A stretch of 64,000 bases of DNA, taken from Synergistaceae bacterium. Lineage in GTDB: Bacteria; Synergistota; Synergistia; Synergistales; Aminobacteriaceae. The DNA lies in the NCBI GenBank assembly GCA_018436595.1, contig JAHDLC010000016.1:1-64000 (forward strand). Reading direction: 5' to 3'. Each line of letters starts with the position of its first letter. Position 1 is the first letter of the stretch. A model generated the notes under the pieces. That model had not been told where the DNA came from and searched no databases. It saw only the letters and a list, made by a program, of their open reading frames with translations. The position numbers and the translations under genes were made by a program. Shown piece after piece: positions 32,822 through 37,722 of this stretch.

Positions 32822-34507
32822 ATGATCGAGGAAGTGACCATTCGGAACGTTGGGGGAGTGGCTTCAGCAGCCCTCCGTCTTGAAAAAGGACTGACCGTCA
32901 TAACGGGTGAGAGCGGAGCGGGGAAGAGCAGCCTTGTCCGTTCTCTCGAACTTCTGGGCGGCAAAAGGAGCCAGTCGGCATTCCTCCGTTCCGGCGAGGA
33001 AGAAGGATCCGTCGAGGCGGTGCTTTCAGGAGTTTCAGGTGACAGGGCAGGCAGTGCATACGCCGGGACGGATGACGGGTTCGTTCTTTTTGCCAGGAGA
33101 ACCTTTTCGAGAAACGGACGAAACCGGACGTACTTTCAGGACAGGGCCGTTCCCCTTTCCACTTTTTCCACGGTGATGAACGAAGAAATGCGCATCCAGA
33201 GCCAGTTTGCCCAGATCGAGCTGCTTGATCCAAAACGGCAGATGGAGATTCTCGACTTCTGCGGGGGAGTTGAGGTATCGAACCTGAAAGAGGCTTTGTC
33301 CGGAACCTTTGCCGGAGCTGTGGAATGCGACCGCTCCCTCCGGGCTGCGAAGAGCCGCGAACAGGAACTGAAAACCCGTTTCCGGGACGGTGAGGCTATC
33401 CTCACGGCGGCAAAGGGGCTGAAACTGGCCCCGGGGTGCGAAAATGAATGGGAATCGCAGATCCGGACCCTTTCACTCAGGGTCGACCGTATGAAAAAAG
33501 CCAGGGACAATCTTCTCCGGATGACGGGAGGAGCTGCGGGCCAGGGGTTGCTTGATCTGCTGGAATCAAGCGGTCTTGAACTGCTGCGGTGCCTTGAAAA
33601 CGATGAAGGCGGCCTCCCAAAACTCTTCAACGAAGGTCTGGAGAGGCTCCAGGCTTTCTCCAGGGAAGCGGCCCGGATGACGGCAGGGCAGTCAGTTGAA
33701 GAAATGGAAAGAGAGCAGGATCTCCTTGAGAAAAGGGGAGGTCTTCTGAGAAAGCTGAAAAGAGCCTCCGGGACGACCTCCGTGGAGGATTTTCTGGAAT
33801 GGTGCGATGAAGCGAAAAGAGCTTCCGAATGGATTCGGGAACAGGAACGGAATTTGGCTGAGCTGACCGAAAAAGGCCGGGGGTTCCGGAAAGAAGCTGC
33901 CGGGCTTGCGGCCGAATTGCGCTCCCTTCGCGCCGCTACTGCCTCAAGACTGGAGCGGGATGTCAACCGTCATCTCGCTGACTTGGCCATGGAGGACTGC
34001 CGGTTTTCCGTTCGTCTCACTGAACTGGAAAAAATCAGGAGCACCGGAGCGGATGATGTTTTTTTCACCCTGTCCACAGGCGGAAAAGGGGAAACTCCGG
34101 TGAACAAAACCGCATCGGGCGGTGAACTGAGCCGGATTCTCCTTGCTCTCCAACTGTCTCTCCCGGAATCATCCCTCCCGCCGACTCTTGTATTCGATGA
34201 AGTTGAGGCAGGCCTTGGCGGTCGCGCAGCCGTTCTTGCCGGATACAAGCTCCAGGAACTTTCCCGCAGATGCCAGGTCATTCTCGTCACTCACGAGGCA
34301 ACCATAGCGGCACTGGCTGAACATCACTACCTGGTGAGGAAAAACGGGGAATCGGTGGAGGCCGTCAAGTTAGGAAAAGAGGAGCGGGCCGCGGAAATTG
34401 CCAGGATGCTTTCCGGGGATGCCGGTCTTCCCGAGGCAATGGAACATGCGAAAAAACTTCTTTCCGGAAGGCCTGAATACCTGATTTCCGCTGATTCAAA
34501 AAATTGA
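32822..34507 (+). CDS. recN: DNA repair ATPase RecN
   Basis: RecN is an SMC-like protein that acts early in double-strand break repair. Walker A GESGAGKSSLV is near residue 30, a coiled-coil region fills about 150-390, and the signature ASGGELSRILLAL and Walker B TLVFDEVEAGLGG lie in the C-terminal head. The ATG at 32822 gives the standard N-terminus. The stop codon overlaps the -35 of the rplU promoter. Confidence 0.94.
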   Translation: MIEEVTIRNVGGVASAALRLEKGLTVITGESGAGKSSLVRSLELLGGKRSQSAFLRSGEEEGSVEAVLSGVSGDRAGSAYAGTDDGFVLFARRTFSRNGRNRTYFQDRAVPLSTFSTVMNEEMRIQSQFAQIELLDPKRQMEILDFCGGVEVSNLKEALSGTFAGAVECDRSLRAAKSREQELKTRFRDGEAILTAAKGLKLAPGCENEWESQIRTLSLRVDRMKKARDNLLRMTGGAAGQGLLDLLESSGLELLRCLENDEGGLPKLFNEGLERLQAFSREAARMTAGQSVEEMEREQDLLEKRGGLLRKLKRASGTTSVEDFLEWCDEAKRASEWIREQERNLAELTEKGRGFRKEAAGLAAELRSLRAATASRLERDVNRHLADLAMEDCRFSVRLTELEKIRSTGADDVFFTLSTGGKGETPVNKTASGGELSRILLALQLSLPESSLPPTLVFDEVEAGLGGRAAVLAGYKLQELSRRCQVILVTHEATIAALAEHHYLVRKNGESVEAVKLGKEERAAEIARMLSGDAGLPEAMEHAKKLLSGRPEYLISADSKN

Positions 34508-34532
34508 CATTCACTGAAGAACTTCGTATAAT
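34504..34532 (+). promoter_or_regulatory. Consensus sigma-70-type promoter of rplU
   Basis: TTGACA (34504-34509) and TATAAT (34527-34532) are exact consensus hexamers with 17-base spacing. The -35 overlaps the recN stop codon. It drives the rplU-prp-rpmA-obg-nadD-LCP-rsfS unit, with a leader of about 80 bases. Confidence 0.93.
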
Positions 34533-34561
34533 GCTACGGTTCGGTGTATATATCGCACGGG

Positions 34562-34593
34562 GCAGGTCATAAACCTGCACACACAGGTGCCTG
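34562..34593 (+). promoter_or_regulatory. Putative rplU leader with alternative hairpins
   Basis: Four short segments can pair in sequence. Segment 1 (34562-34567) pairs with segment 2 (34573-34578) over 6 bp. Segment 2 (34573-34577) can instead pair with segment 3 (34584-34588) over 5 bp. Segment 3 (34584-34587) can instead pair with segment 4 (34590-34593), but with only a 2-base gap, which is too tight for a stable loop. The ribosome site GGGAGGAGG follows at about 34604-34612. L21 leaders that autoregulate are known in other phyla; I cannot match this one to a described motif. Confidence 0.45.
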
Positions 34594-34618
34594 AACCCCC
34601 GGCGGGAGGAGGAAAAGA

Positions 34619-34936
34619 ATGTACGCTATCGTTGAAACAGGCGGCAAGCAGTATCGGATTCAGGAGGGAGACCTCCTGAAGGTTGAGTCTCTCGGGATTG
34701 CGGAGGGAGAATCAGTCGTACTCGACAAGGTTCTTTTCGTGGGTGGAGATGACGGTATATCCGTCGGGGCTCCCTATGTCCAGGGAGCTTCCGTAAAGGC
34801 TTCAGTGGTCACCAACGGAAAAGACCGCAAAGTTCTTGTCTTCAAGTTTAAGAGCAAGAAAAATTACCGTCGCCTGAGAGGTCACAGGCAGCATTTTACG
34901 GAGATTCGTATCGACTCCATCACCCCGGGTGCCTGA
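34619..34936 (+). CDS. rplU: 50S ribosomal protein L21
   Basis: The 105-residue protein starts MYAIVETGGKQYRIQEGD and ends with KKNYRRLRGHRQHFTEIRI, both typical of L21, which binds 23S rRNA. It leads the standard rplU-prp-rpmA-obg order. GGGAGGAGG precedes the ATG. Confidence 0.97.
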   Translation: MYAIVETGGKQYRIQEGDLLKVESLGIAEGESVVLDKVLFVGGDDGISVGAPYVQGASVKASVVTNGKDRKVLVFKFKSKKNYRRLRGHRQHFTEIRIDSITPGA

Positions 34937-34939
34937 GAA

Positions 34940-35281
34940 ATGACGGAAATCTCCGTCGGCCTGCAGGCCGGCCGGAAAGTTGCCATTGTGGCAGCCGGGC
35001 ATACGGGGTTTTCCGAAAGAGGTTCCGATGTGGTCTGCGCAGGAGTTTCCGCCCTTGTCCAGGCACTGTATTACGGGTTTCATGAGGTGTTGAAGCAGAA
35101 GGAGCTGAGGTCTTCCGTTGACAAAAAAAATGCGAAGATGTCCCTCGACTGGGCTGAATGTCCGGCCTCAGAGGGGGACGTTCTGGCGGAGACCATTATA
35201 GGCTCGCTGAAAGAAATTGCCCGGGTTTATCCCGATCATGTCCGAATTGTGGAGGTGCACGTAGATGAATTGGATTTTTGA
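34940..35281 (+). CDS. prp: Ribosomal-processing cysteine protease Prp
   Basis: The 113-residue protein has the catalytic histidine in AAGHTGFS and the catalytic cysteine in [14 protein letters not shown]. Prp removes the N-terminal extension of L27 in bacteria where that protein is made as a precursor. The next gene overlaps by 17 bases and encodes just such an L27. The assignment is therefore supported by both motif and context. Confidence 0.94.
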
Positions 35282-35550
35282 TCTGCAGTTCTTTGCCCAT
35301 AAAAAAGGCCAGGGAAGCAGCACGAACGGCAGGGACAGCGAAGGCAAGCGCCTTGGCATTAAAAAATACGCCGGCCAGGCTGTAAAGGCTGGAAACATTA
35401 TTGTCCGGCAACGGGGCACAAAGGTTCACCCCGGCAAAAACGTCGGCATCGGCAAAGATGACACCCTTTTCGCCACAAGTGCTGGTGTCGTCAACTTCGA
35501 AACGAAGGGCAGCAGGAAGTTCGTTTCAGTGGTTCTCGAACTGGCCGAAT

Positions 35551-35552
<2 letters not shown>
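35265..35552 (+). CDS. rpmA: 50S ribosomal protein L27 (with cleavable N-terminal extension)
   Basis: The mature sequence [15 protein letters not shown] is preceded by [10 protein letters not shown], which fits the Prp recognition pattern ending in FF before AHKKG. Cleavage exposes the N-terminal tail that reaches the peptidyl-transferase centre. The rest, including [20 protein letters not shown], is normal. The ATG has GGAGGT upstream, inside prp. Confidence 0.97.

Positions 35553-37722
<2,170 letters not shown>

Follow-up and report, generated by a model that had tools for sequence, protein, structure and literature searches.

A conserved hairpin leader ahead of rplU in Synergistota shares its core with the predicted L21 leader of Firmicutes

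The window analysed here (the whole stretch of DNA, 64,000 nucleotides long, from a member of the Synergistota) carries the genes for ribosomal proteins L21 and L27 on its forward strand, with a hairpin leader standing directly ahead of the first of them. The locus is made up as follows:

34505-34507: stop codon of the recN frame, the direct 5′ neighbour of the leader region
34504-34532 (+): sigma-70-type promoter of rplU, with TTGACA at 34504-34509, a 17-nt spacer and TATAAT at 34527-34532
34554-34604 (+): leader hairpin with an L21-leader-like core, matched by models R1 and R2 (see below)
34605-34612 (+): Shine-Dalgarno sequence GGAGGAGG, as read from the sequence, adjoining the end of the outer stem at 34604
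34619-34936 (+): rplU, ribosomal protein L21 (bL21), ATG at 34619 (Pfam PF00829, E 1.7e-40)
34940-35281 (+): prp, cysteine protease Prp (Pfam PF04327, E 1.6e-16)
35265-35552 (+): rpmA, ribosomal protein L27 with an N-terminal extension (Pfam PF01016, E 1.4e-38)

The promoter matches the consensus at 12 of 12 positions and is the sole promoter-like site within 34300-35800. Judged by its placement, transcription of rplU should start near 34539-34541, such that the 5′ end of the mRNA would lie some 15 nt upstream of the hairpin and the leader would run to roughly 78 nt. Downstream of the leader the gene order is rplU, prp, rpmA and then obg, and from their position prp and rpmA presumably share one operon with rplU. 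The extension of L27 (35265-35552) precedes the Pfam L27 domain, which begins at residue 11. Prp trims L27 in Firmicutes, where an extended L27 is likewise encoded beside the protease gene, making this arrangement another Firmicutes-like trait of the window operon.

A first-pass annotation of this DNA had marked four short segments ahead of rplU, all of which are present (GCAGGT at 34562-34567, ACCTGC at 34573-34578, CAGGT at 34584-34588 and CCTG at 34590-34593), and had proposed that they alternate in pairing, with only one set able to form at a time. The minimum-energy fold of 34554-34604 (-24.8 kcal/mol) tells otherwise, as segments 1 and 4 and segments 2 and 3 pair simultaneously, the one helix nested within the other:

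34554-34562 (+): 5′ strand of the outer stem P1 (CGC, bulged A34557, CGGGG), pairing with 34597-34604; from the fold, and from covariation at the corresponding columns
34563-34567 (+): 5′ strand of P2, CAGGT, within segment 1, pairing with 34589-34593; from the fold
34568-34572 (+): 5′ internal loop CATAA; from the fold, and the counterpart of UuuuAA in the RF00559 consensus
34573-34588 (+): terminal hairpin P3 (ACCTG, loop CACACA, CAGGT; segments 2 and 3), with 34573-34577 pairing to 34584-34588; from the fold
34589-34604 (+): 3′ strands, namely GCCTG of P2 (which holds segment 4), unpaired AAC, and CCCCG and GCG of P1; from the fold

Pair probabilities for this nested fold range from 0.81 to 0.998. 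Pairing of segments 1 and 2, put forward as the competing state, is a poor competitor: the best structure in which it is forced reaches -20.8 kcal/mol, 4 kcal/mol worse, and its pair probability is about 0.002. Segments 3 and 4 are complementary, as had been said (CAGG with CCTG), but a helix between them would close a 2-nt loop. The outer stem (34554-34562 with 34597-34604) was absent from the original list of segments; it ends at 34604, immediately followed by the Shine-Dalgarno sequence at 34605-34612, which bears out the placement of the element just before the ribosome site. In the window species, the 5′ end of the leader (34543-34551) can also pair with the start-codon region (34619-34627), a helix that would enclose both hairpin and Shine-Dalgarno sequence. 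Start-codon sequestration by this route was considered and set aside, as the duplex is worth -10.2 kcal/mol here but averages -4.1 kcal/mol over the leaders tested, against -3.9 in shuffles.

Taken by itself, the folding energy of the single sequence stands out only modestly (z -1.95; 12 of 200 shuffles fold equally well), and the case for a leader is made from conservation. Counts for the phylum refer to the genomes of the window genome’s phylum group (n=185), in 169 of which L21 was found; rplU leaders were fetched for 130 of these 169. A covariance model, R1, built from 28 diverse leaders of the phylum that had been aligned by sequence, matches the window at 34550-34613 with 58.6 bits (E 4.1e-13), the next best match in the window scoring 13.6 bits. 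Over the 130 loci R1 gives 127 matches at E<=1, comprising 126 upstream of rplU, each in a different locus, and one stray second match; 117 of the 130 loci match at E<=1.2e-4 (the 28 seeds being included in these counts), and all 126 leader matches end 5-14 nt before rplU. Searched against whole genomes, the model matches 142 of 185 at E<=0.01, once in each. A structured rplU leader beside the ribosome site, as first suggested, is thus conserved across relatives.

The covariation analysis over rplU leaders of the phylum, which had been named as a check, yields compensatory changes in one nested hairpin. In the sequence-based alignment of 28 leaders, 85.2% of cells are paired, as against 34-47% when the partners are slid, the covariation score is 0.325 compared with 0.171 (sd 0.015) in shuffles, and 9 of 15 pairs have two-sided changes; two larger leader sets, fitted to R1 and hence biased towards it, give 85.7% and 85.9% paired. 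The weak part is the terminal stem P3, which is paired in only 53-55% of cells and varies in sequence and length among relatives. An anchor filter (CGC, GGY, GCG) was run on 125 of the 130 loci, and the 112 leaders that passed underlie the counts of 1-2 stems, the Shine-Dalgarno offsets and the base frequencies given below; frequencies at the three anchors are therefore partly due to selection, as with the 5′ CGC and 3′ GCG found together in 112 of 112 leaders that were selected for them. Loss of the CAGGT/ACCTG repeats in close relatives had been offered as grounds for rejecting the element, and here the outcome is divided: segments 2 and 3 are not kept, whereas segment 1 retains its GG and segment 4 its CC, and these remain paired. 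Indeed, 107 of 110 folded leaders have the two G’s of segment 1 paired with two adjacent C’s in the nested register (two long leaders among the 112 being omitted from this count).

Among the 13 leaders that failed the filter, several show an element that is visibly displaced or lengthened, and three, belonging to family f11, are without it. These three (L066, L084 and L095, from outside the window’s order) and L120 gave no leader match with R1 (E<=1) or with the joint model R3 described below; in L066, L084 and L095 another sequence, with a run of G’s, precedes the rplU start codon. One further leader, L007, is truncated by the end of its contig and its R1 match is partial. By eye, many leaders carry GGTT, GGCT or AGCT some 12-18 nt before CGC (34533-34553 in the window, and equivalents), near the expected transcription start; column frequencies at a fixed distance fail to show such a motif. 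Further copies of the leader were sought in the window’s genome, where the next best R1 matches, in L139 and L140 (E 0.06 and 0.09), show no rplU motif in their 3-kb loci; the former (L139:1501-1568, 21.5 bits, E 0.06) sits mostly between two opposite-strand frames and is probably a chance match. Elsewhere, at L132:1904-1990, a strong hairpin rich in GC leads into a T run; the site has weak scores to unrelated sRNA families and looks like an intrinsic terminator.

Rfam has a predicted L21 leader family, RF00559, yet the Rfam search of the window gave no match over the gathering threshold (36 bits for RF00559), and none at E<=10 in 34480-34700. None of 100 genomes of the phylum has RF00559 over its cut-off in the same search that detects the leader in B. 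subtilis, and the family has no match at E<=10 in 20 of the fetched rplU loci. Seven weak RF00559 matches do occur in the phylum: six lie on a different contig from rplU, and the seventh on a different contig from the R1 match of its genome. It was from one such weak match, elsewhere in the genome of L131, that the family’s consensus and structure were read: CGC-a-C......GGu-UuuuAA-G-hairpin-C-aCC......G-GCG.

Set beside this consensus, the leaders of the window’s phylum share the gene (rplU), the position directly upstream of it, the CGC/GCG stem with one bulged base after CGC, a Y at position 5 paired to an R before GCG, a 10-nt strand ending in GGY, the RCC opposite, a U/A-rich 5′ internal loop and a variable terminal hairpin; the 14-nt register from CGC to GGY, the bulge, the loop and the gene are the same in Bacillota and in the window’s phylum. 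The suggestion that this leader looks different and may form a new structural class is accordingly not supported, as it has the same core as the L21 leader of Firmicutes. The differences lie around and within that core. The Firmicutes flanks UaCAAC (before) and AGUCUuAGU (after) are absent from the phylum, where, in the window and in the leaders inspected, AT-rich sequence leads into CGC and GCG runs straight into the Shine-Dalgarno sequence. Position 5 is mostly U (85%), compared with C (90%) in Bacillota (60 of the 80 outside loci described below, those passing the strictest anchor score), and G6, unlike in RF00559, is found in 112 of 112 selected leaders. The stem lies 0-3 nt from the Shine-Dalgarno sequence in 103 of 112 leaders, as opposed to 9-21 nt in 70 of 72 Bacillota leaders (72 of the 80 outside loci being used), with no such sequence detected in the other two. 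Plausibly, it is the absent flanks and the U for C at position 5 that cause RF00559 to miss the phylum, and this suggests that the family has been fitted too tightly to Bacillota flanks.

The likeness was also approached with models from each side. For the outside set, 80 rplU loci were taken from other organisms; by title, 75 belong to Bacillota or one of its classes and five to Gamma- or Deltaproteobacteria. R1, which contains leaders of the window’s phylum only, gives 22 matches at E<=10 over these 80 loci; 19 fall in the leader, including all of the top 12, and RF00559 likewise matches 13 of these 19 at E<=0.5, nine of them over gathering. A reciprocal model, R2, was built from 28 Bacillota cores only (its alignment of the RCC strand is imperfect); on 29 loci of the window’s phylum it gives 19 matches, 19 of 19 in the leader, and in the 64-kb window its sole match at E<=10 is 34554-34604 (21.7 bits, E 0.049). 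The scores are themselves modest, with E<0.01 in 3 of 80 loci for R1 (61 of 80 have no leader match at E<=10) and in 2 of 29 for R2, and the cross-phylum case is therefore made from the fact that the matches fall in rplU leaders. In joint counts over both phyla, on an alignment fitted to R1, 85.4% of cells are paired and 11 of 15 pairs have two-sided changes.

A joint model, R3, gives 62 matches in 84 loci, all 62 of them in leaders of the 80 outside loci; 19 of these 62 loci were included in its training and 43 lay outside it. It has no match in the five loci titled Gamma- or Deltaproteobacteria. At genome scale R3 matches 88 of 149 genomes in the phylum of L218’s genome (‘Bacillota bacterium’), with 3 of 3 checked matches sitting at rplU, and, at the same settings, 0 of 150 in the phylum of the gammaproteobacterium Pontibacterium; the B. 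subtilis leader is found by R3 in its locus (17.5 bits) and missed at whole-genome scale. Among seven genomes searched with R3 that were reached by way of their loci, two gammaproteobacterial ones gave weak matches (E 0.03-0.5), which are taken as chance. That the leader also occurs in the phylum of a deltaproteobacterial MAG was rejected, as 2 of 95 genomes match and the two loci, L224 and L225, show no rplU motif. Nor did we retain the idea of a mimicry of 23S rRNA that R3 could detect, since the model did not match either of two 23S rRNAs from the window’s phylum, a result with which three-dimensional mimicry would be compatible; a 23S search of the window’s own assembly gave no match.

Synthesising these findings, we consider it likely that the window leader is a divergent L21 leader, spread through its phylum, by which L21 regulates its own synthesis at the level of translation, with binding and repression being the parts that we infer. 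Folding and covariation establish the structure, and the analysis also shows that the hairpin is conserved, that it stands upstream of rplU and that its core agrees with that of Firmicutes L21 leaders. In the model that we propose, free L21, when in excess over 23S rRNA, would bind the region of the GGY and the internal loop, and so stabilise the outer stem; with 0-3 nt between the 3′ strand of that stem and the Shine-Dalgarno sequence, the 30S subunit would then be held off, and rplU, prp and rpmA could be repressed together. Control is most likely translational, because there is no terminator-like site in the leader region and the stem touches the Shine-Dalgarno sequence. What Rfam misses here is thus probably a self-regulating ribosomal leader and not a new kind of switch.

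The original reading was of just such a switch or attenuator, in which hairpins 1-2 and 2-3 are alternative states that turn expression on or off. GCAGGT and ACCTGC taken alone do form a 6-bp hairpin worth -9.0 kcal/mol, which appears in the best fold of transcripts ending at about 34578-34587 and may therefore form briefly during transcription, but the full hairpin favours 1-4 plus 2-3 by 4 kcal/mol. Moreover, the 1-2 stem is not conserved: 11 of 112 leaders can form one of at least 6 bp, with about 10 expected from shuffled controls; the longest 1-2 stem over the 112 has the same distribution as in those controls; and the 6 bp of the window shrink to 3 and 4 bp in its same-genus relatives L002 and L003. 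A terminator-like site was sought in 34480-34640 and none was found. Transcription attenuation, which needs both an intrinsic terminator and conserved, mutually exclusive helices, was rejected with neither of these in evidence, and we regard the switch as a whole as very improbable. A reading of the segments as chance complementarity without function could appeal to the z score of the single sequence, but phylum-wide conservation with compensatory changes leaves it a negligible probability.

Two further readings accept the structure and differ over its ligand or its origin. A conserved leader might respond to something other than L21 (L27, Prp or another factor), or might simply act as a hairpin at the 5′ end, setting the stability of the mRNA or its basal translation; L21 as the ligand is, after all, deduced here, prp and rpmA come after rplU in the same run of genes, and RF00559 is itself described as ‘predicted’ (PMC3766115). 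Letters and register that are fixed across two phyla (CGC, bulge, GGY, U/A loop, for which the leaders were partly selected) point instead to a protein site, and with rplU directly downstream in 126 of 126 matched loci we hold a ligand other than L21, or none, to be improbable. The second reading concerns how the likeness arose. It is possible, and we offer this tentatively, that there is one L21-sensing core, older than the split between Bacillota and the window’s phylum or passed early from one to the other, to which each phylum has attached its own expression platform, the stem being welded to the Shine-Dalgarno sequence here and standing about 12-16 nt away in Bacillota. The alternative, that the two groups of leaders arose independently and look alike since L21 binds the same RNA shape, draws on the precedent of structurally unrelated leaders for one protein (L31, S4; PMC7247131) and on flanks and Shine-Dalgarno distances that differ between the phyla; it sits less easily with an identical 14-nt CGC-to-GGY register, bulge, loop and gene, and with models from each side finding the leaders of the other, and we think it unlikely. 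Should the single-core reading be true, L21 feedback would extend far beyond the range that Rfam annotates.

No report of an L21 leader in Synergistota was found in the open-licence papers searched. A 2013 survey, which gives RF00559 as ‘predicted’, placed L21 motifs in Firmicutes and Thermotogales only, among 24 lineages, and proposed that lineages with apparently missing motifs be re-examined for weakly conserved ones; the string ‘Synergist’ does not appear in the text of that article as available (PMC3766115). The main text of Stav et al. 2019 (PMC6429828), who scanned the genome of the Synergistetes member Thermovirga lienii, names neither rplU nor L21, the main text of Eckert and Weinberg 2020 (PMC7247131) contains neither ‘L21’ nor ‘Synergist’, and the accessible text of PMC7160235 mentions the L21 leader in Streptococcus only. 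A phylum in which RF00559 passes its cut-off in 0 of 100 genomes, and at least 142 of 185 have the leader, offers a second, divergent alignment for locating the bases that L21 contacts, as well as a test of whether two expression platforms can share a single sensor core.

Finally, the leader can be placed among known systems. E. coli, like the window species, has rplU and rpmA in one operon, and this operon is reported as unresponsive to its own products (review PMC10931766, on the authority of Aseev et al. 2016); R3 having no match in 150 genomes of the phylum of Pontibacterium agrees with this. Other ribosomal-protein leaders, as presented in the main text of Eckert and Weinberg 2020 (PMC7247131), are likewise hairpins standing just upstream of the gene for their presumed ligand. 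The rplU leader of the window is best placed as a variant of the known predicted family RF00559 and not as a new structural class.
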